64,000 nucleotides of DNA from assembly GCA_003194525.1 (NCBI GenBank), contig NBIV01000019.1:124001-188000 (forward strand), read 5' to 3'. Below are positions 749-60,989 of this stretch, in pieces; the stretch's first letter is position 1; each line of letters starts with the position of its first letter. Under the pieces are notes generated by a model. That model was not told the DNA's origin. It did no database searches and was given only the letters and a program-made list of their open reading frames with translations. Position numbers and translations under genes: made by a program. This DNA is from Gracilariopsis chorda (Eukaryota; Rhodophyta; Florideophyceae; Gracilariales; Gracilariaceae).

Positions 749-3174
749 TTATTGGACGCTAAGATCGGGGCATACGTTGAGTATATCATCGGTTTTGGAG
801 TCGATGTCATCGTTCAACGGTAACTGCTTGAACAGTGTACAAGCATTACTCAAAGTAGGATCATTGCTTCGACGGTTGTCGCATGGCTGACCGCAATTTC
901 GTGAGCATACAAATGAAACCTCCAAAGTTTTTTGATTCAAATCTAATCGGGATGGAATAACAACGGACTTGCATAGTGAGTTCGGCGGACAGCTACATAG
1001 AAGAGAATTGGAGTCAGTTAACAAAAGCAGTTAAAACAGAATTGAAACAAAAGCTGCACATACCATTTGAATTCATTAGGAAGTCCATTTTCTTCGCATA
1101 ACTTGTCGCCACCATTCTCACATGGGTTACAGTCTGCATCATTAGTCGTAATATCGGGCTCACAGTTGGGGACTCCATTATCAGTTATTCCCATGCATAT
1201 GAAGCATTTGGGACAGACACATGATGACGGAGACGGTGAGCTTGACATAGACGGGATTGGAGAATTTGAAATTGACGGGACTGAAGAACTTGACATGGAT
1301 GGGATTGGAGAGCTTGACATCGACGGAACGGGAGAAATCGACATGGACGGGATTGGGGAACTCGACATGGACGGGATTGGAGAGCTTGGCATCGACGGAA
1401 CGGGAGAAATCGACATGGACGGGATTGGTGAACTCGACATGGACGGGATTGGAGAGCTTGACATCGACGGAACGGGAGAAATCGACATGGACGGGATTGG
1501 GGAACTCGACATGGACGGGATTGGGGAACTCGACATGGACGGGATTGGAGAGCTTGGCATCGACGGAACGGGAGAAATCGACATGGACGGGATTGGGGAA
1601 CTCGACATGGACGGGATTGGAGAGCTTGGCATCGACGGAACGGGAGAAATCGACATGGACGGGATTGGGGAACTCGACATGGACGGGATTGGAGAGCTTG
1701 GCATCGACGGAACGGGAGAAATCGACATGGACGGGATTGGGAACTCGACATGGACGGGATTGGAGAGCTTGCATCGACGGAACGGGAGAAATCGACATGG
1801 ACGGGATTGGGGAACTCGACATGGACGAGAAATCGACATGGACGGGATTGGAGAGCTTGGCATCGACGGAACGGGAGAAATCGACATGGACGGGATTGGG
1901 GAACTCGACATGGACGGGATTGGAGAGCTTGGCATCGACGGAACGGGAGAAATCGACATGGACGGGATTGGGGAACTCGACATGGACGGGATTGGAGAGC
2001 TTGACATAGACGGAGTAGAAGAGCCAGACAAGGAAAAGACTGGAGAGCTTGAAGCTGACGGAATAGGAGAATCAGACTTCGCCGGAATGGAGGAAGTCGA
2101 CGGAGATGGGGTCGCGGATATCGACGAAATCGGAGAATTAGATATCGGCGGCGTTGGTGAATTAAACATGGAAGGAAGCAAAGAAGTAAACGGAATGGCG
2201 ATTTGAGGCATCGATGGCTTCGAGGACTTCGAATGTGACGGAATTATGGAGCTTGTTGTCGAAGGGGTTGGGGTGCCAAACATCGAAGGCGCAGGGGAGG
2301 CTGATATTGATGGGATAGGAGAGCTCGACATTGACGGGATAGGAGAGCTCGACATTGACGCAATTGGGGAGCTGGACATTTTAGGATTTGGTGAGTTTGA
2401 CATGAGAAGGATGGGGATAGTAGGGATCGACGGTATCAGGAAGCTCGGTTTAGATGTGATTGAAGAACTTTTCATAGATGGGACTGGAGAACTTGACGGC
2501 GTTGTCCTCGCGGGCGGGACTGGAAGAGGATTCGAACAGTCACATTTTCGGTCACATGCGCACTGTCGTGGACAAGACGGTTTAACGGTGATAACACTGC
2601 AGGTCCCTTTTCTTCTCGTTCTGCTCTGCTCCAAACTCCTTCTTCTGTGCAGAGACACACCGCGTGAACATGACGGAGCTCCACCGTAGGTGTCGATTTT
2701 CTTCCGTCCACACTTCAAGCTCGCATGAGCGTACACAAAGAAGTCCATGCAACAGGGAACGTCTGGAAAAAGCTTGAGAGGACAAACGAGGGTGAGCCTT
2801 CGTTTACCCCGGAATAGCTTTCTTCGACAACCAAAGTAGCGTGGAATGGGGTTGTACGTCATTTGCTTTACGACGTCAACATGTGCTTCTGTCATTTGGC
2901 ACCAGTTCAGAGAGTATGTAAGTCGAACCTTGTTTCCCGAAATGTCAAGGAAAACTGTTCCCACGCGGAGTCTTCCCGGTGCGAAAAGCCCATATGCATT
3001 TTGGAAAGGGTAGTACTGACATCCCCGAGACTTGAAACTGTGTGGAATGATATAGTGCTTTTTATATCTCGATGGAGGGGGAGCCCGCCCGATAGAGTAG
3101 CTTGTGTTGCTTGCTGCTACTTTGACGGTGAGTAGAGTGACAACTAAGAAGGGAAAGATGTAGAAAAGCTTCAT
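749..3174 (-). CDS. secreted Cys-rich Ser/Pro-repeat protein (two exons)
   Basis: The minus-strand gene has exon 1 at 3174-1064 and exon 2 at 992-749, 784 codons before the stop. Residues 1-21 are a hydrophobic signal peptide, so the product is probably secreted, perhaps to the wall or matrix (inference). Residues about 50-170 hold an eight-Cys module with landmarks YPFxxxYGLF, FGCRRK, VCPL, CCxDFFVYAHAS and PSC. A short cluster (CPRQCACDRKCDC) follows, then a long tract of 8-residue units such as SMSSSPIP, SMSISPVP and SMPSSPIP, then a Cys module around CVCPKCFICMGI, and finally the exon-2 module with FVCSRNC and LPLNDD. The start is the ATG before the signal peptide. The intron is supported because its removal keeps frame, and the paralogue at 58814-60919 has an intron at the same codon and phase. 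A short block inside the repeats is read out of register. I do not recognise the family. Confidence 0.85.
993..1063 (-). other. 71-bp phase-2 spliceosomal intron
   Basis: On the minus strand the donor is TG/GTATGT after the codon for Lys in NEFK, and the acceptor is CTATGTAG/CT. A plausible branch site (TTAACTGAC) lies upstream of a pyrimidine-rich tract. Splicing joins TG and C into a Cys codon and runs directly into CCPPNSLCK, which aligns with CCPPTSNCK in the paralogue. This is predicted from sequence and homology only. Confidence 0.85.
1228..2010 (-). repeat. 24-bp/72-bp coding minisatellite
   Basis: Near-identical 24-bp units encode 8-residue Ser/Pro motifs and are grouped into a 72-bp higher-order unit of three motifs. 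Further diverged copies extend to about 2,470. Near 1737-1830 the register slips: a GGGG becomes GGG, one G is lost after GAGCTT, and a longer piece is lost near 1826. The net effect restores the frame after about 30 altered residues rich in Arg, Phe and Cys. Confidence 0.85.
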
Positions 3175-3972
3175 AATGTAGCTGACTCCGGCAAACTGAA
3201 CAGGCAGATCCCTCCGATCTGAATGAGGAGCACGAGCACTTAAGGAGGGTGTGGTGTGGTTTGGAAAATCTGAGCACTTGCGAAGCGATTCGATATGGGG
3301 GTTGGCGTACGCTTTTCAGATGATGATGCTCACAGCATCCAAGTCAAAGGGCAACACAATAGTTGCTGTTGTACCGCTCAAGGTCCCCCTATAGCATTGT
3401 GTACGATACTGATTGCCCTCTGTCGGCCGAATAAGATGATCACGTTCCCTTTGCGCATTGTGAACAATTCGTCCGACATATCTGGTGTCCCTTACCTATC
3501 ACAAGAGCGACGAGGAGTCAATGGAAGTGTCATAATATTTCGGTACTTGGAAATGGGCACAGTAACCAGGACGCCCGGCAAAGGTTCTGATATACTCAGC
3601 ATAGGCCCCTGTTCCATTAACTTTACGACGGTACTCTCGGATGTTTCGGGTTGCGCGCGGATGACCATACATATGTCAGTCCAACTGCACGGGCAACCCC
3701 AAAGGTGCGTTACAGTACACCTGTGGGCTAAGAGAATTGTTTGCTTTTTTGATAGAACGTAACTTTGCAGTATTCTGTCTTGGGACCAGGAGTGTACATT
3801 GAGGATATAAGAACACGAATACACACGGATATTGCAAGCAATACTGACCAACGTAATCAAGGCACCGTGGGCTTTTCCTAAGAGATTCTTCAAATGTGGT
3901 CACCACAGATGGCTTCAAATCATTGGGACTGAGATTCGTGATATTGGAATAGAAGGTCTCAAAGGGGGAGGC
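3175..3972. other. upstream region of repeat-protein gene, no gene recognised
   Basis: This stretch holds the promoter side of the minus-strand repeat-protein gene. I see no clear TATAAA at the expected distance. The open frames on both strands show no recognisable domain. Confidence 0.4.
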
Positions 3973-4333
3973 AGATCAGTTGCAAATTGCAAATTGTAAT
4001 GGTTATCCTCGATACAACTTGTACAACTATAACCGTTACAAGTTGTATGTAACAGAGACGTACCTGTAGGGCCACGGAGCTCAGTCGAAGACAGACTACA
4101 AGCTCTGTCTCCGACGTGAGTGTCTCGTAGTGTAGTGTCAGGGTCTTCTAGATGTATCGATAGTACCACTAGAGTCTATTAAAGGAGATGAAGTCTGGTG
4201 TTCTCTCCTCAGAAGCAGCCAGACCTACCATCGTACCGCCTCTGCGGTTTCAGTGTTACATCGCAATTTTCAACTGATCGAAGGTATGCAATTGTGTCGA
4301 AGATAACCGCTACAAGTTGCAATTTCCAGTAAT
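3973..4333. mobile_element. candidate MITE with ~40-bp terminal inverted repeats
   Basis: The left end (3973-4016) and the reverse complement of the right end (about 4290-4333) align over about 40 bp with scattered mismatches, sharing TTGCAATTT, ACAA, GGTTATC and TCGA blocks. A 19-bp motif with core ATAACCG-TACAAGTTG is also repeated directly at 4029 and 4303. There is no coding capacity. I could not identify a target-site duplication, so the ends are approximate and the superfamily is unknown. Confidence 0.45.
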
Positions 4334-5252
4334 CAGGGTTTGTAAACAAAGGAAAGGCATCTAAAAAGGTTGTGGTCTAACCCTTAACCGTTCAACACGT
4401 TCTTAAAGCAAGGCATTAGTGTCGCAATCTTTGCGAAACTCTCAAAACACGCAAGCCTGCCAAACACGCTGTACAGTGAAGTACTAAACTCATATCACTG
4501 CTGACCAGCGGACAGACAGAATCATACAGGACGCCGACGGGCATAAGAGCGTTCCGTTTCCGCTTCCAGTAAATTGAGATACTTCATGTGAGACACTTGG
4601 ACCCCTTCGCAGGGCGAATTCCCGCTTAATTTGATGCAATCTGCAACCGATACAACCACCATCTTTGAGTACGCTTTCTGCATCAGTTTTGCTCACATTC
4701 AAGCCAGTGTCGCGAGCTGTTGAACATTATGTCGCCGTCCACGCTTCAAGGCGACACGAAAGTTGTGAGGTTCAGGCCGTTAGATGAGGAATTTATTCCG
4801 GTACATTTCTAAAGGTTTCCGCTGACCGCGCTGTGATGCGCTATGCCCACAACGAAACGAAATGTATGGTGACCCCCCAGATAGGGGATAAAATCCGTAC
4901 AAATTTGTTTCAAGATCGTGAATACGGCGCATTAGACCATGTCACAAATCGCATTCAACTCAAAGCGTCTCTCTCTGACAGTGGCGAATAATGTGTGCAA
5001 TGACTGCAGATATGTAGTTCGTAATCTCGAAGCCTCAGAGCTTAAATAGAGTGTATGATACGTATGAGAAATGAATAGTATACCGTTTTGTTTATTGTGC
5101 AAAGTTTTGCATGCTGCTCCAAGGACATGTGTTACTACAACGTGACTAGTCTGATTGATTTGCGTTGAATATTGGTGACTGGCGACTAGGAAGAAGTGTT
5201 AAAGGGCTAGAGTCACAAAATGCGGCTCTGATTCTAGCACAATATGACTTCA
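4334..5252. other. no gene recognised
   Basis: I found no supportable coding region, RNA gene or repeat here. The open frames are short and have no recognisable motifs. Confidence 0.4.
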
Positions 5253-7358: not shown

Positions 7359-10300
7359 CTACTTTGTCAAGCCACAAATTAATGTCAGTCTTCTGAGCTT
7401 GTCAAAGACAACAGGCTTAGTAAATATGTCGGCAGCTTGCACATCAGTCCTTATTGACTTCACGTCAATTATCTTGGTCTCCAGCAGCTCTTTTATGTAG
7501 TGATGTTTTAGAGCAATATGCTTGTTCCTTTCCGAGACCTTCGGACTCTTCACGATCGACAAAGCAGTCGAACTGTCCGTTGCTATGGATATAGGGTACA
7601 TTTGAGGTTCATCCTCCAGGACTGATTCGTTGCGTAGTTCCCAGAATATTCTACGCAACCACATTAGTGTTTTTCCACAATATGACAGTGCAATGTACTC
7701 CGCCTCTCCAGACGACAGAGCAACAAGAGTTTGCTTCTTGGTCGTCCACATTACAGGTGCTTCATTCACCTTTATTAATAATCCTGTCGTAGACTTTCTC
7801 GTCTCACGACAACCGGCCCAATCTGAGTCACAGTATGCCTCCATTGGTGCTGTGTTATTAGCGGGAAAGAACAAGCAAAGACCCTTTGTACCCTTCAAGT
7901 ATCTCAGTACTCTTTTTGCATGCCCAACATGCCTCATGCATGGATCATGGACCTGCCTTGCCAGCATTGAAGCGGCAAACATGATGTCTGGCCTCGATGA
8001 GACGGCTAAGTACATCAAACGTCCTACCAGTTTCCGGTAGCGGTCATGTACGCCTGATGGAATACGCCGTTCGTCCTCTCGACGAGCTGTGATGTCGCAT
8101 TGTGACGGCAATGGAGTTCGAACAACGTTGGAGTTAACCAGACCATTTTCCAGCAGTATCTTGTCAATATACCTGCTCTGTTGTACCTTTATTCCGTTCT
8201 TGTCCCTCGTTATGTCAAATCCAACGAAACGTTTCGCCTCTCCAAGGACCTTAACCTTAAAGAGGTTCTGCATCTCTGTCTTAAAGTCTTCCAGAAGAGA
8301 CCGGGAGTTACAAGATGTCAGTAAGTCATCAACGACCACTACGATGGCCAAGGTTCCGCTGTTGGACTTGTATATATATAGTCGGCTATCGGTGCTCGAC
8401 TGCTTGAATCCCAAGCGCAATAGCTCATTGTGCATGAGAGATCCCCATATTTGACCGGCTTGTTTTGCGCCGTATATTGACTTTAGAAGCAAGCATACCT
8501 TTCCAGGAATAAATGAGGAACCAGATGCGTTTTGGGGTTGTTCCATGATTAGAGGCTCGTCTAGATCACCGTACAGGTATGCATTGCTAATATCCATAGT
8601 CTCTAGTATCAGGCCCTGAGATGCGGCCTTTGCCAACAAAAGACGAATGGTTTCAAGACGGGCAACCGGGGCGTACAAGTTGTCTGGGTCGTAATCCAAG
8701 TACGGGCGTTGCAGGTCGCCCCGTGCTACGCAACGCGCTTTTGGAAGGATACGCGGAGGGTCGGAGCTTAATAATTTTGCTAAGAACCTCCATAAGAATG
8801 GCAATGGTTTCATGCCAGGTTCTCTATCGATCAGCTTCCAAGTTCCTCTTTCCACCAACGCATCGTACTCTCTGTCGATTGCTTCTGCCCATCCTGGCAT
8901 CACTCTGGCTTCTTCAAAGCTCTTGGGGACTCTGCCATCATCCCCGAGGTCTTTGGAGCGTGAGTGTGCGATAAGGCAATGAGCAAAAGAAGCGTCTAGA
9001 TGGTCTTCATCTTCTTCACCCATAATTTTCTCGGCTTCGTATCGTCTGAGAGACGAGAAGTCCATAAGGTCTTTGATTGAAGGGAGGGACTCCTTGGTAA
9101 CCTTGAAATCTGCCTCGCGGCACTTTATTACCTTTCCCATGGATGGGATGTATATCCTATACAGTGTCCGCGGGCTTTGCATCCCCACGAAGTGTCCAGG
9201 AATAGCGCGTGGTAGGAACTTCTTATTTGTGACGGTTTCAGGCCTGTATATGAACGCGTGGCCTTCTTGCCCGAACTTCCGTAAGTTTGTGAAGTCCGGT
9301 TTTCGTCCGAACCATAAGGTGTAAGGAACCTTCATTCCTGCTCGATGATTTGGTAGGCGATTTCTCAAGTAGTTTGCGTGTGAAATGGCTTCTTCCCATA
9401 GCTCATGCGGTAGCTTGGAGGCGAACAGGAATGTTCTAGCCATCTTCCACAAGTCTTGGATGACTTTCTCTGCTACACCGTTCGATTGGTGTGCGTACGG
9501 TGGGGTGAACTCTAGTACTATACCATTTTCCATCGCGTATGAGACGAAATCGTCTGACCTATTCTCACCCGCTCCGTCAAGGCGAACGCGGTACATTAGG
9601 TTGGGAGGTAGTTCGGTTTCCGCGCGAGCCTTGTACCAGCGGACAGATTCAAAGAATTGTTTCTTCTTACTTAGAAAGTATATTGAGCTTGCCCTTGTGT
9701 TGTCGTCAATGAGGACTTGCATATACTTCGATCCTTGTAAAGAGGTTGGGGTTATGGGTCCAGTGAGGTCAGTGTGCGTTAACTCCAAAGGTCTCTGCAC
9801 TACCGAGTTTGATCGTTGAAGTGGAGCACGCTTCGTGCCGGCGTCAATGCACGGAGTGCATATGACGTTGTCGACTTCATATGGGGAGAGTTTAGGTACC
9901 CCTTGACATAAATCAATGCATGTCAAGAGTTTCTCTCTTCCAGGGTGTCCGAGTTTCTCGTGCCAATCTTTGGCTCTGTTGTCAGGTGCATGTGTTGCAG
10001 CTTGTACCTGTGGTGGTGATACGGGGCTCGGTAGGGGATAGAGTCCGTCCTTCGGGGTGGAGTGTTGTATGACTTGGCCCGTTGTGCGGTCTTTAATTAC
10101 GAATCCGTTTGAGTATTGCACCTCGACGTAATTCACCAGGACAGATAAGGATACCAAGTTAGAGTCGAAGGTTGGGGTATGTTTGGCGGGTAACATGAGT
10201 CCGGTTCCTAAGGGTAGCTTTATTTTTCCACAGCCTACGATCTCTGACTGGTGGTCGCAAGTGTTTACGGTTTGCGGAGGTGATTGGTGATATTCCCAGA

Positions 10301-10691
10301 ACAACGATTTGTCCTTGATGAAAACATGACTAGCCCCAGAGTCCAGCCATGTTGGGGTTATGTTGTCCTGGTGGAGACTGGCATTAGCTAATGCTATGAA
10401 TCCGCGGTAGTGGTTCCTTTCCCTGTCTCCGTGGTGGCGGTTAGCGTTTGGTCGCCCTTGGTTTTGGCCGTTGGTGAAGTTGTTAGAGTCCCAAGCTCGA
10501 TTGTTATTGCGTCCTTCGCCTTTGTTATGTTTATTATTATTGGAGTTTTTATTGTTGGGCTGTTGTTGGTTTTTATTTTTCTTGCGCCAACATTCGGCCC
10601 TGATGTGGCCTATGCGGCCCGTCCAAGTTCTGCACAATCCAGAACGAGGGTGCGTGCAACCTACGGAATGTCCAGGAGAGGTTACTAACAA
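7359..10691 (-). CDS. pol: copia-type pol polyprotein
   Basis: This frame of about 1,110 codons encodes the enzymes of a copia retrotransposon. Near the N-terminus lies the end of a nucleocapsid-like zinc knuckle (GHIRAEC) followed by an Asn/Lys-rich linker. The aspartic protease motif is TWLDSGASHVF (about residue 112). The pre-integrase HxxxGH-like motif DWHEKLGHPG is near residue 243. The integrase core includes HTDLTGP, a D near VLIDDNTRA, and HQSNGVAEK. The RT has the MDISNAYLYGDL and VVVVDDLL motifs, and RNase H has YCDSDWAGCRETRKSTTG. The order protease-integrase-RT-RNase H identifies Ty1/copia rather than gypsy. The true start is uncertain, because the frame opens without an obvious ATG and probably continues a gag that is not visible. 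Confidence 0.92.
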   Translation of the reverse strand: MLVTSPGHSVGCTHPRSGLCRTWTGRIGHIRAECWRKKNKNQQQPNNKNSNNNKHNKGEGRNNNRAWDSNNFTNGQNQGRPNANRHHGDRERNHYRGFIALANASLHQDNITPTWLDSGASHVFIKDKSLFWEYHQSPPQTVNTCDHQSEIVGCGKIKLPLGTGLMLPAKHTPTFDSNLVSLSVLVNYVEVQYSNGFVIKDRTTGQVIQHSTPKDGLYPLPSPVSPPQVQAATHAPDNRAKDWHEKLGHPGREKLLTCIDLCQGVPKLSPYEVDNVICTPCIDAGTKRAPLQRSNSVVQRPLELTHTDLTGPITPTSLQGSKYMQVLIDDNTRASSIYFLSKKKQFFESVRWYKARAETELPPNLMYRVRLDGAGENRSDDFVSYAMENGIVLEFTPPYAHQSNGVAEKVIQDLWKMARTFLFASKLPHELWEEAISHANYLRNRLPNHRAGMKVPYTLWFGRKPDFTNLRKFGQEGHAFIYRPETVTNKKFLPRAIPGHFVGMQSPRTLYRIYIPSMGKVIKCREADFKVTKESLPSIKDLMDFSSLRRYEAEKIMGEEDEDHLDASFAHCLIAHSRSKDLGDDGRVPKSFEEARVMPGWAEAIDREYDALVERGTWKLIDREPGMKPLPFLWRFLAKLLSSDPPRILPKARCVARGDLQRPYLDYDPDNLYAPVARLETIRLLLAKAASQGLILETMDISNAYLYGDLDEPLIMEQPQNASGSSFIPGKVCLLLKSIYGAKQAGQIWGSLMHNELLRLGFKQSSTDSRLYIYKSNSGTLAIVVVVDDLLTSCNSRSLLEDFKTEMQNLFKVKVLGEAKRFVGFDITRDKNGIKVQQSRYIDKILLENGLVNSNVVRTPLPSQCDITARREDERRIPSGVHDRYRKLVGRLMYLAVSSRPDIMFAASMLARQVHDPCMRHVGHAKRVLRYLKGTKGLCLFFPANNTAPMEAYCDSDWAGCRETRKSTTGLLIKVNEAPVMWTTKKQTLVALSSGEAEYIALSYCGKTLMWLRRIFWELRNESVLEDEPQMYPISIATDSSTALSIVKSPKVSERNKHIALKHHYIKELLETKIIDVKSIRTDVQAADIFTKPVVFDKLRRLTLICGLTK

Positions 10692-14608: not shown

Positions 14609-15790
14609 ATGGCCCCGTCCACAGATCTTCGCAGAACTGTTGGAACAACTGTCAACAGTCGTGCTCGTCTGGTTACAAATGACGCTGAATGCAAACGTTA
14701 TTACGGATCTCTATGGAAGTCAACAACGGTACACGGTTCTGTCCTCAATGTTGACATACGTAAGATCAACAATCGAAATCTCACTTTTCTGACTGTGAAG
14801 TTTCGTCTACCGAACCGAGAAAAAGAAGTAACTCTACCTTTATCTAGTGTCAAGCTAGGTACCGGTGTTGACGAAGCCGTGAATGCTGCAGAAGAGCCTA
14901 TTACCGAGGTTGAACCCATTAATACGCAAAATATCGAGGAAGATGCTCTTGTCACACCATCTCAGATGCAAGTTTTGCAGCCGCAAACAAGTTTATTAAG
15001 CGAAAATGCACCTGTCCAATCAACTGTGATTCACGGTCGTGTGTGGGAAACCTGTACGACGTTGAGTCCTCTGAATGGTTGTATGCAAATGCATCAGTGG
15101 AAAGTGGTTGGCCCAGCTGGAGATTTTATCTCACCGCGTCACGTTCTTCCAAACATGAGTGCATTAGATTTCTTTCTTTAGATGTTCCCTATGCAGCATT
15201 TGCAGTTCATAGTGAACAGAATAAATGTTCGGTTAGAAAGCAAAGACGTTCGGAGGACTTCAGGGGGAGAATTGCTCAAATTCTTTGGAATTCTTATCCT
15301 CATGACTCGCATTGAGTTCTCTAACAGACGGGATCTTTGGAGCCTCGAGCCTTTTTCTAAGTTTATTCCTCAGCCAAATATTGGTCTTGCGATGTCACGG
15401 AACAGATTTGAAATGCTTAGAAGTTCAATATGCTTCAGCGGAAATGGTGTGACTGAAGAGCAGGGAATCGCGCGTTGGTCCTTCGTAACAGATTTTGTGA
15501 AGGCAATCAATGACCATCGTCGGTCTTTTGTCACGCCATCACATGCCTTATGTGTTGACGAAGGAATGTCACGATGGTACGGATTAGGCGGTAATTGGAT
15601 TGATGTCGGGCTTCCGCACTATACTGCATTAGACAGAAAGCCGGAAAATGGTCTTGAAATGAAGGCCGTATGTTGTGCACGAAGTGGCATAATGCTGAAC
15701 ATTGAGCTCAATATGGGTGCAAATATTCCGGAACAAGTTTTTGATTCTGATAACGCCCATGGAACGGCAGTCTTACTTCGCTTAGTGTAG
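14609..15790 (+). pseudogene. piggyBac transposase, N-terminal and central part
   Basis: The frame reads as a DDE_Tnp_1_7 (piggyBac) transposase: SALDFFL, FVNRIN-type segment, LLKFFGILILMTRIEF, LAMSRNRFEMLRSSICF, then the first catalytic Asp region HALCVDEGMSRWYGLGGNW, then LDRKPENGLEMKAVC. An in-frame TAG at 15179-15181 interrupts it between DFFL and MFPMQHL, where the family has a sense codon. The gypsy element enters after AHGTAVLLRLV. The N-terminus is uncertain: an overlapping frame opens at the ATG at 14511, and I cannot tell which is used. The copy is dead as an autonomous transposase. Confidence 0.85.
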
Positions 15791-16592
15791 TGCAACGCCC
15801 TCAGGGAGGGATTCTTGGTACTTGAACGCTTTCCCGATATTATCGGTTGTGTAGTGTGTATATGAACTACGCCCCACAATGGTGGGTATGGACACGTGGG
15901 ACACGGTTTTGGGTCAATTGGCGGTTGGCCACAGTAGTGGATGTTGCCACGAAATGTGGAGTATTTTAGTTAATATTATTTATTATTTTCACACCCATTT
16001 CTGGGAAGCTAGTACTTAGTGCGACGGCGCACTGCCGTCGCACCAGTAAACCTTCCCCAACAAGGGACCCCAACCTGGGGAATTGGCTCTGAGCTTTACC
16101 GCCTCCGCGTGTTCTCAACTCCTCCTTGGAGGGAAGCACCGTAGTGTACGGAAGTTCACCCCCCTTGCACATCTAGAGGAGACCCATCATTGGGAGTACT
16201 AATTGTTCCAATCATATTGGTGTTTCGCCCTGTATAGGGAGTCCTGTCCACCGGCATTGCCGTATCTACTCGTCGCTCTCGCGACCCACTCGTCCTTCCT
16301 CTTTCCCCTTTTTAGGGTAGCACCTCCCGCTATCCGCGGCCCTCGTGTGCGCATCCGCTCACACACCCCCACTTACGTGGAAACATACCTCTACTGAGGA
16401 TCACACCCCGCTCACGCGGATACCGATTCTTCGCCTTCACCTCCCTGCGCGAGTCGCGACAGGTGTCCCTGGTCTTACAAACCGGCTTCGCCGTGACACC
16501 TCTGGGAGGGCTCTACCCAACTGGGTTCACCTCGTGAGAGGAAGATCCCGGACGTCTTTCGGTGTTCTTCCCCTTTGGGGCATTGCACCACA
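15786..16592 (+). repeat. 5-prime LTR of the gypsy element
   Basis: This 807-bp LTR contains many tiny inverted repeats, including a 10-bp stem with a 5-nt loop at 16019-16043 (GTGCGACGGC arm). That hairpin is present in all three LTR copies in the window. Confidence 0.95.
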
Positions 16593-16698
16593 AAGTGGTC
16601 TCCTGACTTAGAATCGGTTTTTTTTTTTCCCTCTTACGAGGTTTGTTTTCATTCACCGGAAGTTCCGTGATCGTTTCCCGTCGTAACGGTATTTTCTC

Positions 16699-18873
16699 AT
16701 GTCGAGAAATCCCTCCGACGCGGAGCCAGTGGTTACGCGTAGTCGCTCCCGCGACAACGCGGACACTTCCGAAGTTCGGTTCGTACCCCGTATCCCTATA
16801 CGGACAAGTTCCAGCCGTGCTGGCGCCGCTTCATCGCGGAATGATACCCCCGACTGGGAACCCCGGAACCTCCTTTTGCCCTTGTTATCACCCCCGCAGG
16901 GGAATGCAGAATCGACTCCGGCTGTTGCCGCAGTGCCCCAGGCACCCCGGTCTGCTCCCGCTGTCGCGGCTTCAAGCCCCCGTGGAACGGGCGATAACAC
17001 CCCCCAGGGGACTCCCCTGGAATCCCAGGTCCGCGCTCTGTGGACCGCCCATGACACCCTTGTAGGGGAACTAAAATCCCTCCAAGAGGTGGTCTCGGCA
17101 ACCCCCGTAGAGGAGGTCGCCGAGGAACTCCGTATTTTACGGTCTGACGTCAACTCCGTGTTGGAGAGTTTGGGACAACCCGCCGCCTTCATCGAAGGAG
17201 TTGAAGCCCGATTTGATCGGATTGGTGCCCGCCTGGAGACGCTGGAGCAGTTCGTCCTCATGGACAAACCATCCCCGGGTGATCCGGTAAACGAGGCATC
17301 GCACAACGACCAGCTTGCTGGGAAGAAGAAACGCCGTCACCGACGGAAACACCACCGAAAATATTCGGACTCCGATTCTTCGACATCGTCGGACTCATCC
17401 CGAAACCATTCGGTTAGCTCGAGCTCCTCGGACTCCGACTCGGAGGACGAGAAGCGAGGCTACTCCTCCCGCTCGAAGCGGTCATCGGCCACTGAAGGTG
17501 TGGTCCGAACCCGCCAGAAGGGGAGAAGACACCCCGGTCTCCGGGAATTGAAACCGACAAACCCGGATTACCGGAAGCTTTTATCATACCGGTACTACCG
17601 GCTTGAAGATTCGTCACTTGGACGTACGCCCCGTGGTACGGGAAAGGTGCGAGAATGCACTAAGCGAATGCAGCTCTCGCTCCGCAACCAGTATTTTACT
17701 GGAAAGGACCCAGTCCTAGTACTGGATTTCCTATCCCGCTTTGTAGCGGAGGCCGATATCCTCGGTATGAATGAGGGACAAGCCTATTTGGCTTTACCGT
17801 ATTTCTTACGGGGAGTGGCCGAGGACCAATACACCTCTGTCCGAGGATCTTCTCGCGCCTCCGAGGGAGGAGTTACTTGCTGGCCGGAGGCTGTGCAGTA
17901 TCTTCTGCGCTCCTACGCCACCAACACCGCTATTCAGCAGGCTATCCTCGTTTTGCGAGATACACGCCAGCGTGCTGGAGAGACCGAGACCGATTACTCG
18001 GTGCGCCTTAACAAGGCTTTCCACAGATGTGGTAACGTATACCCCGCTGGGGAGCGCAGTACCATGTTCATTGATGGTCTTGACCCGGCAATCCGGAGTT
18101 TAGTTACCCGTTATCGGGAGGACAAGCGAAGGATCACCTACCTCGAGCTGGTCCAACACGCTCGAGCGGAAGGGGATGCACTTCGTGCAAGAACTCCGAA
18201 CAATCGGTCTAAATCCGCCAAGGCGTTGTTGCTGGAAAGCGAAGCTTCCTCTCTCCCGCTCACCGCGGATGGGAACCCTGAACAGGGATTTGATACCGTG
18301 CATTTAGCGCAGGGGGATGGTGTGTCGATACCCACCAGTGAGTTACCGTCAACGACGGAGATGACCCATGATACGGGAACAGAAGATCCCGTTCTATACG
18401 GTGGTAACAGTCGGGTTCAACCCCAACGACTCCCGTTTTCAAACGGTCAATCCCGTTATCAACGGCCTGGATGGACTGACACCCGCCCTGCGGTTCGCTT
18501 CTCCGATACTCGGAATAATAATCCGCGTGTCGCGGTGCTGGCTCTCATTTGCCACCTGTGCTATGCCCATGGCCATACCTCTCCTCAGTGTATTTGTTCA
18601 CTGAAGGATATGGCCAAGGTGGTGGCAAATTATGAGGCCCTCACTCCAGAGGAGAAACGTTCCGTCCCGACGGCTTCCTACCTCCGTGCTAAAACGGACT
18701 TTTCTCACGCCCTACCACAGACCCCGCGTGCGCGGCAAGCTTCATACACCCCGATTCGGGAGATCACGCAACCATCCGTTGCAACCCCCGCTTATGCGGA
18801 TAGAAACCCCCGTCAACGGGATGAAGCACTCGTTGTCGAGGAAACCAACCCACCGCCGAAGGCGGAAAACTAA
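16699..18873 (+). CDS. gag: gypsy Gag protein
   Basis: This 724-residue frame begins at an ATG shortly after the LTR. Residues about 1-110 are low-complexity. Residues about 110-185 look like a coiled coil (repeated Leu/Val in EELRILRSDVNSVLESLG and RIGARLETLEQF). A basic then Ser/Asp-rich stretch follows (KKKRRHRRKHHRK, then SDSDSSTSSDSS). The capsid-like retrotrans_gag domain spans about 330-500 (FTGKDPVLVLDFLSRF to MFIDGLDPAIRSLV). A CCHC zinc knuckle (CHLCYAHGHTSPQC) lies near residue 617. The protein would form the particle shell and bind RNA. Confidence 0.9.
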   Translation: MSRNPSDAEPVVTRSRSRDNADTSEVRFVPRIPIRTSSSRAGAASSRNDTPDWEPRNLLLPLLSPPQGNAESTPAVAAVPQAPRSAPAVAASSPRGTGDNTPQGTPLESQVRALWTAHDTLVGELKSLQEVVSATPVEEVAEELRILRSDVNSVLESLGQPAAFIEGVEARFDRIGARLETLEQFVLMDKPSPGDPVNEASHNDQLAGKKKRRHRRKHHRKYSDSDSSTSSDSSRNHSVSSSSSDSDSEDEKRGYSSRSKRSSATEGVVRTRQKGRRHPGLRELKPTNPDYRKLLSYRYYRLEDSSLGRTPRGTGKVRECTKRMQLSLRNQYFTGKDPVLVLDFLSRFVAEADILGMNEGQAYLALPYFLRGVAEDQYTSVRGSSRASEGGVTCWPEAVQYLLRSYATNTAIQQAILVLRDTRQRAGETETDYSVRLNKAFHRCGNVYPAGERSTMFIDGLDPAIRSLVTRYREDKRRITYLELVQHARAEGDALRARTPNNRSKSAKALLLESEASSLPLTADGNPEQGFDTVHLAQGDGVSIPTSELPSTTEMTHDTGTEDPVLYGGNSRVQPQRLPFSNGQSRYQRPGWTDTRPAVRFSDTRNNNPRVAVLALICHLCYAHGHTSPQCICSLKDMAKVVANYEALTPEEKRSVPTASYLRAKTDFSHALPQTPRARQASYTPIREITQPSVATPAYADRNPRQRDEALVVEETNPPPKAEN

Positions 18874-18890
18874 CTGAGGGAGTCTCCCCT

Positions 18891-21800
18891 TTGGGAGAGG
18901 CGTCCTCAAAAACGAGGCTGTTGGCGCCCGAGGCGTCCTCGCCTCGCTCCCCGGTGAACGTCCTCTCGAGGAAAGACACCGCTGACGCGGACTCTGCGCA
19001 CCTCGGTGTGTTGCGTCGCCCGTGGATACGGAGTAAAAATCCCCGGATTCCCGGTAGAGTCTTGGTCTTGGCCAAGCGCAATTATAAGGTCTATGCCGAC
19101 CTTGGCCTTGACCCCCAGTTTATCGTGAGGTTTCTCACCGTCCTGGATACACGTGCAGGCCCCAACTTTGTCGTGGAATCATTGTTACCCCCGCTTGTGC
19201 GGTCGCGTATCCGCTCTGACGCGGTCCCCGACATTTCGGATGCGAACAACAATCCGTTACAAACGGTGGGCACAGTGGACCTCGTCGTGAGACTTGGTAC
19301 CTCTGTGGTGAAGTTGGACTTCATCGTTTGCCGTTCATTGGCAGCACCAGTCATACTGGGATGTGATTACTGCGACAGATTTGTCGACGCAATCAGGCCC
19401 CGCCTCAGGCGTGTAGAACTTGACGACGGATCGTCGGTTCCGATTCTTCGCCGCCCGCTAAAGCAGTCCTCTCGGAAACAAGTTCCGCTCCCTGCTGCGC
19501 AGGAACCACCGCCCGCGTCCCGCGAGTCCACCAAGCTCCGCGTCGCTGCCTCGGTTTCTATACCGGCTGAGTCCCAAGTCTGGGTACAGGTAAATTCCCG
19601 TCAACACGGTCTTCGGGTTATACAACCCCTCGCCTCGTTGTACGAGAAATCCCAGCTGGCGCTGGCTAATGGAATTGTCTCCATTTCCCCGGATGTTCCT
19701 TTCCGGATATTGGTTGCCAACCCTGGCAAACACCCCCAGTATCTGGTCAAACACCAAGTAATTGGGAGTGTAACCCCCCATCCTATGGGAATGCTGCCAA
19801 CGAAGATGACAGCCGCCGATGTACTCGGAGTTACCACCTCTTCTGAGGAGTTCGCCCCGCCGTCCGAAGACGTCAAGTCTAAGGAGGGGGAGGAAACCGC
19901 TACTTCAGCGTCGAACATACCGAGTAACTCGGAATTGCGAACCACACCTGTTCCACAGGACAATGCTCCATCGAGCAATGACCGGATTGATCCGGAAAAA
20001 GCACTTGAAGCGCTGGACTTCAGCCACGTGCCAGAGTTGCACCGCGACAAACTCCGTACTATGTTACGGGAATTCACCACAATGTGGGATGGCTCGCTTG
20101 GCGAGATTGATGCAACGGAACACCGGATCGATTTAATCCCCGGTGCGCGACCGGTTGCACAACCCCCTTACATGGCAGGTCCGAAAGCTCGGGAAGAGGA
20201 GCAGTCCCAGGTGGACAAGATGCTCCGCGCAGGTGTGATTGAGCCCGCTCAATCGCCCTGGGCATCCCCAGTTGTACTGGCTTTAAAGGCCGACGGAACC
20301 TGGAGGTTCTGTGTCGACTACCGCCGGCTCAATGCCGTGACTGTTAGGGACACGTACCCCATCCCTCGTATGGACGAGTGCATTGACTCCCTTGGAGACG
20401 CCACCGTGTTCACGGCCCTTGATGCCAATTGGGGATATTGGCAAGTACCTGTCAGACAGGAGGATCGCGACAAAACCGCATTCACCTGCCATGCAGGAAC
20501 GTACCGCTTCAAGCGGATGCCATTTGGGTTAACCAACGCCCCCGCCACCTTTCAGCGTGCAGTAGATATTCTACTCAACCGCTTTAAGTGGCGGAGTTGT
20601 CTGGTCTACCTTGATGATATTATCATCTTCTCCAACTCGTTGGACGACCATCTCACTCACGTCCGAGACGTGCTGACCGTACTCCGCGATGCGGGAATTA
20701 CCCTCAAGTTGAGGAAATGCGAGTTTTTCACAGATACTGTGAAGTATCTGGGTCACATTATCCGTCCTGGACGGTTAGCGATCGAGAAAGCTCGAGTCAA
20801 ATCCCTCGTTGAGGCGAAAGAACCCCGTACTCAAACGGAACTGCGCTCCTTTCTGGGGCTGGTCAACGTCTATCGACGGTTTATCCCGAACTTTTTGGAT
20901 ACTGCAGCGCCCCTGAACGCGTTGTTGCGAAAGGGGAACCCCCCAAAACTGGGAACATTTACGCCCGAGCAATCGGAAGCTTTTAACTCCTTAAAGGAGG
21001 CTGTCACATCAGCACCAATCCTACATCTCCCAAAACTTGGGTTGCCATACTCCGTAGATACGGACTCGAGCGACTACCAAGTCGGGTGTGCTCTTTTTCA
21101 AACCACCCCCGAGGGGGAACGACATCCAATTGGTTATTGGTCACGTTCGCTCAATGTTCATGAGCGGAACTACTCCGTATCGGAGAAAGAGTGCCTCGCC
21201 GTCGTATGGGCGATGACCACTCTGCGCCCCTACCTTATGGGAATTCACTTCACCGTGTACACGGATCATTCCTCATTGAGGTGGTTGATGAATATCTCCG
21301 ACCCGTCGGGACGCCTCATGCGCTGGAGACTCCGCCTCGCGGAATATGACTTTCAAGTCATTTATAAAAAGGGTGCGCAGAACACCCAGGCCGACGCTTT
21401 ATCGCGGTTACCCACAAGTGGGGAAGCACTCCCAACAGAGGATGATGAAGTCCCATGCTTCATGGCTATAGACCCGGATGATCCGGAATATGCCGTCGAG
21501 GCTAGGCCAGAAACCTGGGACGAGGATGCTGATTTTGACGAACTACTCGCATCGCGAGATAAATCTGAGAACCCGTTACCGGGAAACTTTGTACCGGTAT
21601 CGCCGGAAGAAATGATCCGAGAACAATTCGGCGACCCATTCTGTACGAGAATTCGTGCCCGTATCAACGGTGGTGAAGATCTCCCTTTCGGGGTAAACGA
21701 CAAAGGCTACCTCGTAAGAAAGGTCGAAGCCCGCCCACAGATTGTGGTACCACATTCCCTGCAATCGCGGGTGTTACATCTATCACACTACGCCCCCATT

Positions 21801-24452
21801 GGAGGTCACCCAGGTGGGAGGAAACTCTACCTAACCCTGCGAAGGGATTTCTATTGGCCCGCAATGGCGGTGGATTGCTACGCAACTGTGCGGTTTTGTA
21901 GCGAATGCGTGAAGAATCGCGTCAAACTCCGCAAAAATGCGAAGAAGATGAAACTATTCCCCGCAAGGGCGCCGCTCGAGTTTATCGCGATCGATATTCT
22001 CGGACCATTACTCACCACGAAACGTGGAAACAAGTTTCTACTTGTCATTACCGACCGCTTTTCTAAGCTGGTACGGACTGTCCCTCTTCGGAGGATAACC
22101 GCTCTCACGGTGGCCCAGGCTCTGGTGACGCACTGGATTTTTGTCTACGGTCCCCCTGTAGAGGTGCTCTCTGACAACGGGAAGCAGTTCGTGAGCAAGT
22201 TCTTCCAGGATGTTTGTCGCATCCTGGATGTCAAGAACTTGTTCACGGCTACCTACCACCCCCAGTGTAATGGGCAAGTTGAACGGTTTAACCGGACGTT
22301 ACTCGCGGCGTTACGTTCCTACGTCGCTGACCACCCAACGAATTGGGATCTCTACGCTGATGCGGTAACCTACGCGTACAATACGCAGGTACACCGGACT
22401 ACCGGAGTTTCGCCATTCGAGTTAGTTCTATCTAGAACACCCCCGCCTGTGGCGCTGGAACCCCAAGCTACCTTGGACAATTTCCCATCTGTGGGTATCT
22501 ACCGGCAGCAATGGAAGCGATGGCTTTCCAAGCTGGTCCCCGCTGCGCGGAAGTCTATGGCACGGGCCCAAGCCGCTTACAAGCGGGATTTTGACGCTCG
22601 CGTGCGAGGAAAACCATCCCCGATTCGGGCAAATAACTACGTCTTCATCAGGAAGGAATACTACAACCCGGAACGGGAGAAGCGTCACAAACTCTCGCCT
22701 GTGGCGGATGGACCCTTCAAGGTGATCTCTGTTAACACCGACACTGTCGTGGTAGAGATGGGGGACACGCACGAACGGATTTCCCATGATCGTGTTGTCC
22801 TCGCCCCTCCTCCCTCGTCAGAGGTAGTCCTGGATCTAGGCAACCCCGTTTCTACGGACTCCGCTACACCGGAACAATCCGGGAGTACTAGACCTACGGT
22901 ACTACCACACCCCAGCCGGGGACTCTCAGACCTACCGACTCTGTCGGACTCACCGGCTCAGCCGGGTAATTCGGGCCCCTCAGCGCCCGCCCCTACCACG
23001 TCTGCCCCACTTGCGCGCATCTATACCCGCCAGGCGGGGAATGTTATCCCTTATCCCGCCGCTCCGTCTAAGGAGGGGGAGGAGAACACTCGTTTTCGAG
23101 GAACGATATCACCGTCGCAACGGGAAACACACCGTAACATACGGAACACTGACCGTGGAGCACGGAGTATGTCACGCGACACTAATCCCCCGTTCCCGGG
23201 CAGTGCTGTGCAACAGAAACCAGACGCGCAGGCCCCGCAAAAGCGGCAAATACACCGTTTGTCACGGGAAAACGAGAAGCCTCACTCCAATACCGCAGCA
23301 GCGGAAAGGCAATCGCCCGATGCCTCGAAGCCGCCGTTGGCGGAAGTCCCCGCGGAAGCGGTTCAATCAGGTCGATCAGACCCGCGCCCTGCGGAGAAGG
23401 GGCGCCCAGATACGCCGGCCTCACAGGGGAATACCCACACCCCTCTTGGGGAAAAAGGCGGCCAAGCTGCAGTCGAAGCTTTAAGCCCTGGCTCGCAAGC
23501 ACCGGAAACGCCTCCCGTCGTTGACGGAATCAAAGCCCCCGCTACGGGGAATGATTTGCGCCAACCCCCGCATCGCTGCGGCGAAGAACCGAGGAACTCG
23601 GGAATAACGCGCGCCATCGCACGCTCGAAACCGGTCGTACCGGACGCTGCTCCTCCTCACGGAGATGGTGCACTGCGCTCAGCGGCAATTCCCCTGAAAA
23701 GGGTGTCATCGGCACCTGCCCGGAACCCCCCAGAGGGGAATTTTGACCAAAATACCGGTGTACCGGAGTTAGCCCCAGGCAACCCGTCAGTAGCCGGGGA
23801 CACCACGGCATCACCGGAACGTATGGTGCAGAGCGCTCGTGCGCCTGGCAGGGAGGCGGTTTGCCACCCAATCACCGTGTCGCACGGGACCCCCCAGGGG
23901 ATTGTGGAAATGCCGATCCCGCAGGAGCGGTCATCTTCCCGCAAACTCGCGGTTCGTGCGCTCAACCGCGAAGGCGGAACCCAAGTCCCCCGCCGACTGG
24001 CGGTTCGCCCGGCCTACCGTGAAGACGGGAACAACAACACCCCTCTGGGGAACGACTTGCCGGTGAAAACCGTGGCACCACACACCCTCTTGAGGGATAT
24101 TTTCCCGCATGAGCAGCGGCCACTAGGACAGCGTACGGCAACGTCGGAGTTATCGCCGAACACCCTGCTAAGGGACATTATACCGCACCGCGGGCAACCC
24201 TCGCCAGGGATTACAACCCCCACCCGGCACGGCCGGCAGGTCTACGAACGAAAGTTCGTAGTAGACCGACTTGTCGGATACACCTGGGACCAGGATGGTA
24301 TTCTACAATACCGCGTCCGCTGGTACGGGTACGACCCCAATGGGGATACGTGGGAGCCAATGGAACACCTCCCACGGTCGCAGGTCGTGCGATACCACCG
24401 TCAAACGGGAACTGCAGCTCCAGCCACGCTGGTAAATGCCCAAGTTGGGTAA
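18891..24452 (+). CDS. pol: gypsy Pol polyprotein with chromodomain
   Basis: About 1,850 codons encode a retropepsin-like protease (TVLDTRAGPN), reverse transcriptase (FCVDYRRLNAVT, then VYLDDIIIFSNS), RNase H (VDTDSSDYQVGCALF), and an integrase with an HHCC zinc finger (LSHYAPIGGHPGGRK to CSECVKNR) and DDE core (FIAIDILGP, VLSDNGKQF, CNGQVERFNRTL). A proline/arginine-rich disordered stretch of several hundred residues follows. The C-terminus is a chromodomain (ERKFVVDRLVGY, YRVRWYGYDPNGDTWEPMEHL). The order places it in Ty3/gypsy, and the chromodomain makes it a chromovirus. The chromodomain is expected to read histone marks during integration. The frame differs from gag's. Programmed frameshifting or read-through is common in the group, but I cannot say which applies. 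Confidence 0.95.
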   Translation: MGEASSKTRLLAPEASSPRSPVNVLSRKDTADADSAHLGVLRRPWIRSKNPRIPGRVLVLAKRNYKVYADLGLDPQFIVRFLTVLDTRAGPNFVVESLLPPLVRSRIRSDAVPDISDANNNPLQTVGTVDLVVRLGTSVVKLDFIVCRSLAAPVILGCDYCDRFVDAIRPRLRRVELDDGSSVPILRRPLKQSSRKQVPLPAAQEPPPASRESTKLRVAASVSIPAESQVWVQVNSRQHGLRVIQPLASLYEKSQLALANGIVSISPDVPFRILVANPGKHPQYLVKHQVIGSVTPHPMGMLPTKMTAADVLGVTTSSEEFAPPSEDVKSKEGEETATSASNIPSNSELRTTPVPQDNAPSSNDRIDPEKALEALDFSHVPELHRDKLRTMLREFTTMWDGSLGEIDATEHRIDLIPGARPVAQPPYMAGPKAREEEQSQVDKMLRAGVIEPAQSPWASPVVLALKADGTWRFCVDYRRLNAVTVRDTYPIPRMDECIDSLGDATVFTALDANWGYWQVPVRQEDRDKTAFTCHAGTYRFKRMPFGLTNAPATFQRAVDILLNRFKWRSCLVYLDDIIIFSNSLDDHLTHVRDVLTVLRDAGITLKLRKCEFFTDTVKYLGHIIRPGRLAIEKARVKSLVEAKEPRTQTELRSFLGLVNVYRRFIPNFLDTAAPLNALLRKGNPPKLGTFTPEQSEAFNSLKEAVTSAPILHLPKLGLPYSVDTDSSDYQVGCALFQTTPEGERHPIGYWSRSLNVHERNYSVSEKECLAVVWAMTTLRPYLMGIHFTVYTDHSSLRWLMNISDPSGRLMRWRLRLAEYDFQVIYKKGAQNTQADALSRLPTSGEALPTEDDEVPCFMAIDPDDPEYAVEARPETWDEDADFDELLASRDKSENPLPGNFVPVSPEEMIREQFGDPFCTRIRARINGGEDLPFGVNDKGYLVRKVEARPQIVVPHSLQSRVLHLSHYAPIGGHPGGRKLYLTLRRDFYWPAMAVDCYATVRFCSECVKNRVKLRKNAKKMKLFPARAPLEFIAIDILGPLLTTKRGNKFLLVITDRFSKLVRTVPLRRITALTVAQALVTHWIFVYGPPVEVLSDNGKQFVSKFFQDVCRILDVKNLFTATYHPQCNGQVERFNRTLLAALRSYVADHPTNWDLYADAVTYAYNTQVHRTTGVSPFELVLSRTPPPVALEPQATLDNFPSVGIYRQQWKRWLSKLVPAARKSMARAQAAYKRDFDARVRGKPSPIRANNYVFIRKEYYNPEREKRHKLSPVADGPFKVISVNTDTVVVEMGDTHERISHDRVVLAPPPSSEVVLDLGNPVSTDSATPEQSGSTRPTVLPHPSRGLSDLPTLSDSPAQPGNSGPSAPAPTTSAPLARIYTRQAGNVIPYPAAPSKEGEENTRFRGTISPSQRETHRNIRNTDRGARSMSRDTNPPFPGSAVQQKPDAQAPQKRQIHRLSRENEKPHSNTAAAERQSPDASKPPLAEVPAEAVQSGRSDPRPAEKGRPDTPASQGNTHTPLGEKGGQAAVEALSPGSQAPETPPVVDGIKAPATGNDLRQPPHRCGEEPRNSGITRAIARSKPVVPDAAPPHGDGALRSAAIPLKRVSSAPARNPPEGNFDQNTGVPELAPGNPSVAGDTTASPERMVQSARAPGREAVCHPITVSHGTPQGIVEMPIPQERSSSRKLAVRALNREGGTQVPRRLAVRPAYREDGNNNTPLGNDLPVKTVAPHTLLRDIFPHEQRPLGQRTATSELSPNTLLRDIIPHRGQPSPGITTPTRHGRQVYERKFVVDRLVGYTWDQDGILQYRVRWYGYDPNGDTWEPMEHLPRSQVVRYHRQTGTAAPATLVNAQVG

Positions 24453-24707
24453 CGTTGCCGCGCGAGCGGAGAGCGAAAGGAAAGGATAACAAGACAAGGT
24501 CCGTCGAAGACGGGGAACTCAAATGAGAATCACCGTTCAAAACGGGAAAGTTTATTCAAGGGAGCAGCTAGCTCCCCACAAAACTATACTACAATAGCCG
24601 GCTATGCCAGGAAAGAAGAACCGGAGACGGCGTACGCGCTTTTATCACCCATTTCCGTCTGGGAACCCTCCGCGTCCGCGGTCGTTTTCCCGTCTTAGGG
24701 GGGGATA

Positions 24708-25514
24708 TGTAGTGCAACGCCCTCAGGGAGGGATTCTTGGTACTTGAACGCTTTCCCGATATTATCGGTTGTGTAGTGTGTATATGAACTACGCCCCACA
24801 ATGGTGGGTATGGACACGTGGGACACGGTTTTGGGTCAATTGGCGGTTGGCCACAGTAGTGGATGTTGCCACGAAATGTGGAGTATTTTAGTTAATATTA
24901 TTTATTATTTTCACACCCATTTCTGGGAAGCTAGTACTTAGTGCGACGGCGCACTGCCGTCGCACCAGTAAACCTTCCCCAACAAGGGACCCCAACCTGG
25001 GGAATTGGCTCTGAGCTTTACCGCCTCCGCGTGTTCTCAACTCCTCCTTGGAGGGAAGCACCGTAGTGTACGGAAGTTCACCCCCCTTGCACATCTAAAG
25101 GAGACCCATCATTGGGAGTACTAATTGTTCCAATCATATTGGTGTTTCGCCCTGTATAGGGAGTCCTGTCCACCGGCATTGCCGTATCTACTCGTCGCTC
25201 TCGCGACCCACTCGTCCTTCCTCTTTCCCCTTTTTAGGGTAGCACCTCCCGCTATCCGCGGCCCTCGTGTGCGCATCCGCTCACACACCCCCACTTACGT
25301 GGAAACATACCTCTACTGAGGATCACACCCCGCTCACGCGGATACCGATTCTTCGCCTTCACCTCCCTGCGCGAGTCGCGACAGGTGTCCCTGGTCTTAC
25401 AAACCGGCTTCGCCGTGACACCTCTGGGAGGGCTCTACCCAACTGGGTTCACCTCGTGAGAGGAAGATCCCGGACGTCTTTCGGTGTTTTTCCCCTTTGG
25501 GGCATTGCACCACA
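24708..25514 (+). repeat. 3-prime LTR of the gypsy element
   Basis: This is an 807-bp copy of 15786-16592 with about two visible differences. The conserved 10-bp-stem hairpin lies at 24941-24965. CTTAG follows. Confidence 0.95.
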
Positions 25515-26445
25515 CTTAGTGCAACCATGGTTTGGATCAGGACGGTTGGTATGTGCGGATTCCTTTTTTGCGTCTGTCAGTACAGCGAAAGCATTACTGG
25601 AAAAAGGTTTAAGGTTTACTGGAGTTGTCAAAAATGCTACTCGTGAATATCCGATGACACATCTCTCCGAAACTACTTTATTAGACAGGGGAGATTTTGT
25701 ATCTATGCTATCGAAAGGAAGCATTATCAATAATGATATAATGGCTGTAATGTGGATGGACAGAGAAAGAAGGTATTTCGTATCAACCTCTGGCACGGTT
25801 AGTCCTGGCTGTCCTATTATTCGAGAAAGGTGGAGACGGGAGGGAAATATTTCTAAGAAAGTGGAAATGGAGGTCGCAATTCCCGAAGTGTGTGAAGAGT
25901 ATTACAAAAACTGTTCAATGGTCGATCGCCATAACAGATGCAGACAAGATGATCTGAATCTGGAGAAGAAAATTGAAGTGAAAGAGTGGTCATTTCGAGT
26001 GAACTGCTCTGTTTTATCGATTTGTATTGTGGACGCCTGGAAGTTGTACAAAGCCGCAAATGGAACCCGAAAAGTGAAAAGTCCGCACCACTTCTATTGC
26101 CAATTGGCTGATGAACTAATTGAGAATACATGGGATACCACAGGTCTAATGAGCAGAGATGAGCAAGAATGTGAAAATGTTCATGAGAAGCCAATGTTTG
26201 CAGGCACTGGCTTGCATTTAATGCAGACGAATAGAAGGAGAAAAAACAAGGATGGCAAGATTACAAAAGCTTTATATCAAGGACGATGCAGTTTCTGCAA
26301 AGGTAATACAAAGTCCAAGTTTTTATGTTCTGGCTGCTATATCAGAAAGGAAAAAGAAGTGTTTTTATGTCACACTGGTACTAATAGAGATTCTTTTATG
26401 AAACACATTGAAGAGTGTCACGGTATAATGAAGTTCAGAAGCTGA
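25515..26445 (+). pseudogene. piggyBac transposase, C-terminal part
   Basis: Downstream of the gypsy insertion the transposase resumes at the duplicated CTTAG with VQPWFGSGRLVCADSFFASV, which contains the second catalytic Asp region. VMWMDRERRYFVSTSG follows, with the third acidic region. NCSMVDRHNR and VDAWKLYKAAN are typical of the family. The protein ends in a cysteine-rich zinc-binding domain (CSFCKG, CSGCYIRKEKEVFLC, HIEECH) of the kind piggyBac transposases use to bind their ends. The stop is a TGA at 26443-26445. Confidence 0.85.
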
Positions 26446-60985: not shown

Positions 60986-60989
60986 AAGT

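Follow-up and report, generated by a model that had tools for sequence, protein, structure and literature searches.

Perfect micro-hairpins arrayed from LTR to LTR in Ty3/Gypsy chromoviruses of the red alga Gracilariopsis chorda

A 64,000-nucleotide stretch of the Gracilariopsis chorda genome (contig NBIV01000019.1, positions 124,001 to 188,000; hereafter the window) contains a retrotransposon in which tiny perfect inverted repeats follow one another through LTRs and genes alike. Why does a mobile element carry such an array, and what would read it? The original prediction described stems of 4-8 bp with loops of about 1-6 nt. The dense hairpins are real, but the enriched unit is narrower: it is a hairpin of 11-14 nt (5 bp with a 3-nt loop, or 4 bp with a 4-nt loop), and loop-3 stems of at least 6 bp are hardly enriched (5 vs 2.1). 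All five examples quoted at the outset exist. Those at 16788, 17208 and 20613 and the 8-bp stem with a GAAA loop at 24242-24261 lie where they were placed, and CCGCTTGTGCGG is present but starts at 19191, not 19193.

Window positions 15786-25514 are a young Ty3/Gypsy chromovirus LTR retrotransposon. Like other members of this group (Metaviridae, for example yeast Ty3), it has LTRs, reverse transcriptase (RT), RNase H, a zinc-binding and a core integrase domain, a chromodomain and a Gag zinc knuckle. The Pol domains follow in the order RVT_1 (residues 466-624), RT_RNaseH (718-819), H2C2 (953-1010), rve (1027-1124) and Chromo (1789-1830). The two LTRs differ at 2 of 807 positions. A 1-kb piece of pol had 1250 candidate matches in the genome (91.3 Mb, 1081 contigs), and the 40 that were scored were all 99-100% identical. 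No Rfam family or tRNA scored above threshold in the element. Its features are as follows.

15781..15785, no strand: target-site duplication CTTAG (second copy at 25515-25519), inside an ORF that the original prediction labelled piggyBac-like
15786..16592, + strand: 5' LTR (TGTAG...CACA), 28 loop-3/4 hairpins (34.7 per kb)
15786..24707, + strand: hairpin array, 295 perfectly paired stems (minimum 4 bp, loops of 3-4 nt), 290 distinct cores
16699..18873, + strand: gag, 724 aa, 72 loop-3/4 hairpins (33.1 per kb)
18550..18591, + strand: CCHC zinc knuckle of Gag (CX2CX4HX4C), conserved in aligned relatives
18891..24452, + strand: pol ORF, 1853 aa, 184 loop-3/4 hairpins (33.1 per kb)
20286..20762, + strand: reverse transcriptase domain (RVT_1, E 2.3e-36)
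24255..24380, + strand: chromodomain (E 1.6e-8)
24697..24707, + strand: G-rich polypurine-like tract directly before the 3' LTR
24708..25514, + strand: 3' LTR, from the LTR-to-LTR comparison

The element interrupts a transposase-like ORF, the pieces of which (15182-15790 and 25267-26445) lie on either side of the target-site duplication.

In the element with both LTRs, stems of at least 4 bp numbered 118 at loop 3 against 30.9 in dinucleotide shuffles (z 14.5) and 126 against 31.2 at loop 4 (z 18.8), and loop-3 stems of at least 5 bp numbered 66 against 8.1 (z 20.9). When one LTR was counted, loop-3/4 stems of at least 4 bp were 295 against 77.2 (z 22.4); with 5-nt loops added, the array holds 285 non-overlapping hairpins. 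At loops of 7-12 nt, stems of at least 4 bp showed no excess (z -0.8 to 1.5), and those of at least 5 bp reached their maximum at loop 10 (15 vs 7.8, z 2.4). Four hairpin types in gag and pol, each under dinucleotide, codon-order and synonymous-codon shuffles, gave z 4.1-17.2, many standard deviations above the shuffles as the original prediction had expected. Its view that synonymous choices are shaped to retain stems was borne out by the excess of 4-bp/loop-3 stems over synonymous-codon shuffles in gag (42 vs 11.9, z 9.3) and pol (84 vs 25.6, z 12.5). In the Pol tail alone, 5-bp/loop-4 stems were not in excess (3 vs 2.4). Chance or composition, including GC-rich coding sequence and codon usage, is a negligible explanation, since z is 4-22 for element, gag and pol under the three kinds of shuffle, the element has no excess of mirror repeats or of two other partner rules, and the GC-richer relatives L065 and L067 (63% GC) have no hairpin excess (z -1.5 and -1.7).

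The array is not tied to one gene or frame. Hairpins occur in all three reading frames of gag and pol, and LTR, gag and pol have similar densities; the 106-nt leader has 28.3 per kb and the 252 nt before the 3' LTR 19.8 per kb. Overall there is about one tiny hairpin per 30 nt. Within 23060-24440, where at least 35 stems had been claimed, 47 non-overlapping ones (at least 4 bp, loops 3-6) were counted against 17.7 +/- 3.3 after shuffling. In 400-nt steps, the excess begins and ends at the borders of the element, and the flanks there are at background.

In family A, to which the window element belongs, most units read CC-N2/3-loop3/4-N2/3-GG and have A-rich sequence on their 3' side. The hairpins of this family have their size, loop and CC/GG ends in common (171 of the 295 hairpins), features that are weaker or different in other families. 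Where neighbouring hairpins are present they recur with a period of about 21 nt, as measured in the window copy alone, and linker bins of other families are weaker. The mean spacing is 31 nt, linkers are most often 6-14 nt, and those of 0-2 nt are under-represented (16 vs 35.5). When stems are anchored on the CC..GG ends, inner Watson-Crick pairs are 14-21 times expectation. This argues against dyad sites on double-stranded DNA, for which fixed ends would be enough, yet here inner pairs of any sequence are enriched. G-U pairs are not preferred inside stems and are no commoner than other mismatches, either in anchored stems (G-U 22 vs 14.6; A-C plus C-A 32 vs 16.9) or in six families pooled (G-U 566 vs 547 expected; inner A-C 739 vs 625 expected). 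Such a missing wobble preference is unusual where RNA structure is under selection, and fits better with copying or with hairpins in DNA.

Two asymmetries concern the strand. At the first pair outside the stem in family A, G-U is at 1.8 times expectation, against 3.9 for A-C and 4.3 for the rest; this under-use of G-U relative to other mismatches is shared by families A, D, E and F, mixed in B and C, and opposite in the contaminant relative L072. The base 3' of the hairpin is A in 115 of 285 cases in the window element, against 46 for the mirrored T on the 5' side (45 vs 17 in D). Families A and D show this polarity strongly and C and F moderately, while in B, E and L072 it is slight or absent. 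Because of the G-U under-use just outside stems and the 3' A bias, we consider it likely, with moderate confidence, that the RNA-sense strand is the strand acted on.

How widely is the array distributed? An RVT_1 search of the genome gave 3380 candidates, 150 of which were scored; families were defined from loci picked there, and more may exist. The scored loci comprised six families that form one clade, named A-F, as well as four Gypsy families outside it, named G-J. Identity between families A-F is 62-73% at the nucleotide and 63-76% at the amino acid level. All 38 scored loci of families A-C were enriched (z 7.0-22.6). In a comparison of the window element and 14 of 58 loci, hairpins exceeded expectation in A (295 vs 77), B (73 vs 28), C (83 vs 28 and 46 vs 16), D (97 vs 32, 129 vs 42 and 86 vs 29), E (42 vs 19 and 43 vs 19) and F (55 vs 27). 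In contrast, the four other Gypsy families of the same genome have no comparable array (z -0.9 to 2.7): G has 20 vs 23, H 31 vs 36 and 25 vs 29, I 37 vs 33, and J 33 vs 20 (z 2.7). Among the families sampled, the array is a property of the whole clade. Its shape differs between families: the outer pair is CC in A and B, CC or TC in D and most commonly CG in E, and loops are most often 5 nt in B, 4-7 nt in F, and 1, 3 and 5 nt in L072.

Eighteen further relatives were contaminant contigs in bacterial bins; the viral_contigs database held none. L072, which is 68% identical over the matched RT part and carries gag and the start of pol, has 132 hairpins with loops 3-5 against 51.4 (z 11.3). Unlike these elements, the remaining 17 of the 18 have no comparable array (4-bp stems, z -1.8 to 2.8). 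The nearest outgroup, L059 (52% identity), shows no enrichment of 4-bp stems in its gag-pol part (91 vs 81, z 1.0) and an excess of 5-bp stems over the whole contig (58 vs 28.5, z 5.1). In the tree, L072 adjoins A-F and L059 lies outside; the L072 node has a support of 0.65, with L072 covering 135 of 438 columns. Given this placement and the array in A-F and L072 without a comparable one in L059, the array probably arose in the A-F/L072 clade after the split from L059. L072 (1-4100) is contig JALZUP010000409.1 in a Robiginitomaculum bin and encodes the gag and pol start of the clade; the contig is eukaryotic contamination, probably of red-algal origin.

Between families, density and geometry are conserved and positions little: the overlap of hairpin positions is modest (z 0.3-5.7 for inter-family pairs). 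The original prediction expected co-varying stems, and these did not appear within families, where stems hit yet still paired numbered 0-2 against 0.6-1.5 expected. Between families the effect is weak, double changes restoring pairing in 45% against 36% of control pairs. We relied for maintenance on biallelic sites with nulls matched locally in position. Singletons of family D (700 sampled sites) break hairpins as random changes do (-0.22 vs -0.196) and are read as mostly post-insertion changes. Those of A (-0.148 vs -0.242), B (-0.116 vs -0.229), C (-0.13 vs -0.191) and E (-0.05 vs -0.083) harm hairpins somewhat less than the null (z 0.9-1.7), the A set including the mosaic copy L008. The effect of shared variants on hairpin number is close to neutral or favourable in A (27 sites), B (5), D (220) and E (115), and differs only weakly from the null in C (42); the counts in A, B and C are small. 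Variants common to several copies thus keep the array on balance, and the replicating lineage retains its hairpins. Since RT errors also become shared variants, this comparison does not separate selection from RT bias. Stem hits in D were 0.77 of expectation for shared and 1.05 for singleton variants, a contrast blurred by control values of 0.76 and 0.95. An earlier test that scattered differences randomly along the piece (z 1.2-7.9 for the number of hairpins present or retained) was set aside as inflated by clustered differences in copies such as L008, most of whose differences lie in its last 1.2 kb. L008 appears to be a mosaic of two subfamilies, near-identical to A and then about 20% diverged (247 of 1199 positions, last 1.2 kb), which is consistent with recombination between co-packaged RNAs. 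L041 is possibly another mosaic.

The array, its geometry and limits, its distribution over the families sampled and its family-specific shape were computed directly. For its reader, the Gag of the element is a candidate. Gag is predicted to have N-terminal helices, a confident alpha-helical core, the zinc knuckle and a helical extension. C618, C621 and C631 of the knuckle are nearly invariant across aligned relatives, and the conserved helical extension is predicted at high confidence (10-residue means 82-95 over residues 611-670). The extension follows straight after the knuckle (window 18592-18711), and L072 has a similar one. Arc, HIV/SIV, MLV and PNMA capsids were the top structure matches (probability 0.98-1.00; best E 4.6e-3, none reaching 0.001). 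A Pfam search of the window Gag gave no match, and PF03732 is present in 11 of 42 Gag relatives, six of which carry an organism name, in every case Agarophyton chilense. By arithmetic, a Gag shell around the long RNA of the window element would give about 33 nt per Gag. This is near the mean hairpin spacing, a coincidence and no evidence of binding.

These features may imply the following arrangement. The genomic RNA of the clade would resemble beads on a string, a Watson-Crick hairpin of 11-14 nt and a single-stranded linker being repeated from LTR to LTR across coding and non-coding sequence. The putative reader is the element's own Gag, through its zinc knuckle and conserved helical extension; roughly one Gag would sit on each unit so that the RNA is selected, condensed and packaged, and family-specific closing pairs and loops may reflect co-evolution of Gag with its sites. 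A hairpin-recognising protein or a packaging role, both suggested at the outset, is the reading that we favour. We propose distributed Gag sites for packaging and give this a little less than an even chance. The absent wobble preference inside stems, the lack of within-family compensation and the strand signals that vary from family to family count against it.

The array may instead have a mutational origin, in which the RT of the clade switches template in small quasi-palindromes and perfects imperfect ones, so that hairpins pile up without function. Strict Watson-Crick pairing without wobble preference would fit, as would the finding that 2180 of 2780 new hairpins in D (counted over ordered copy pairs) need one base change, as correction would give; in the more diverged pair L003/L008 the figure is 24 of 65. 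RT-borne changes would likewise be shared rather than singleton, compatible with the shared-variant test, and template-switch mutation at quasipalindromes is reported in E. coli (PMC7202029). However, several features would not be expected from this origin: a 21-nt pitch in which short linkers are rare, a shortage of G-U, though not of A-C, next to stems, the preference for A on the 3' side in A and D, the stop of loop-3 stems at 5 bp, and the similar density in LTR, gag and pol. We regard it as unlikely; pitch, short-linker exclusion, stem-length stop and strand signature favour function. A further suggestion, accumulation of self-inserting mini-palindromes, fell away. Self-inserting palindromic elements of the double-hairpin type are copies of one sequence inserted as extra bases, whereas the cores here are nearly all distinct and the new D hairpins are mostly single substitutions.

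Among functional alternatives, the hairpins may defend the RNA against silencing or nucleases, by hiding targets or because small RNAs derived from either strand would fold back on themselves. The 21-nt pitch is close to small-RNA length, and perfect pairing serves both strands, matching the absent wobble preference. Yet tighter packing would protect better and the shortest linkers are avoided, closing pairs and loops would not be expected to be family-specific, strand polarity is present in A and D, and other Gypsy families of the same genome manage without an array. This makes defence quite unlikely. That the hairpins act in single-stranded cDNA during reverse transcription, for example in nucleocapsid coating or protection of minus-strand DNA, agrees with the pairing rule, since DNA would not favour wobble and inner A-C lies slightly above G-U. 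The polarity outside stems, however, indicates the RNA-sense strand in four of seven sets, and we consider this improbable.

If Gag binding holds, the array would be an extreme variant of the dispersed packaging signals of single-stranded RNA viruses (MS2, picornaviruses, the HBV pregenome), described in PMC6281560 as many short stem-loops with a common motif, proposed to bind the shell protein. The window element likewise has many above-chance stem-loops along its length. It differs in being an LTR retrotransposon and in having hundreds per genome, a 21-nt pitch and perfect pairing; binding here is putative. If Gag does not bind, the array may be a new kind. In persistent RNA viruses, genome-scale ordered RNA structure (GORS) is a pervasive genome-wide structure that costs synonymous freedom (PMC7642675, PMC3950689), and the array resembles it in both respects. 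The 11-14 nt unit dominates the window element, while the 150-nt folding energy is modest (mean z -1.29 on the + and -1.08 on the - strand of 32 element pieces; -0.35 in 38 flank pieces). GORS is defined by folding energy and is not known to have a fixed hairpin size or pitch. Among these nearest kinds we know of no precedent for such a density, fixed unit or pitch. No described retroelement with such an array was found in the open-access literature; an inverted-repeat survey whose stated scope is arms of at least 10 bp (PMC13155455) is blind to these hairpins. Against the packaging reading, yeast Ty3 itself needs no array, since the interior of its RNA (nt 429-4979) can be dispensed with if the proteins are provided in trans (PMC4974528).

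LTR elements could mark their RNA for packaging through a handful of structures in the leader or through sites spread along its whole length. A hairpin unit repeated with a 21-nt period across coding sequence, in several divergent families with different shapes, makes this question directly testable. We suggest, more tentatively than the Gag sites themselves, a second code over the protein code: a periodic, strictly Watson-Crick micro-hairpin array, with one unit per about 21 nt and near one per Gag, the shape of which would co-evolve with the binding protein of the lineage. A genome would then be shaped far by a second code while its proteins stay intact. If true, this would be a new way of marking self RNA for packaging, and no retroelement or virus known to us has a distributed array for nucleic-acid recognition that is as dense. 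The array also provides a signature with which the sequences of other elements and viruses can be scanned.

Elsewhere in the window no such density occurs, as originally predicted, although milder excesses do. The left flank of the element is at z 0.3 and the right flank has 538 hairpins against 462.5 (z 4.4); a tandem-repeat stretch at 58901-61000 is at z 3.4. The copia-like pol ORF at 7359-10691 (- strand) has 60 against 37.7 (z 3.0). In the same ORF, 5-bp stems with loops 3-5 number 27 against 9.6 (z 4.9), most with loop 5, and this is perhaps a weak independent version of the array. Two ORFs on the - strand, 1018-3174 and 59132-60919, look alike: their N-terminal parts contain cysteines, and long tandem repeats rich in Ser/Pro are present (SPIPSMS..., PAPSESNS...). 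A weak Cornifin match is below the cut-off, and the repeats also keep long ORFs open on the opposite strand.
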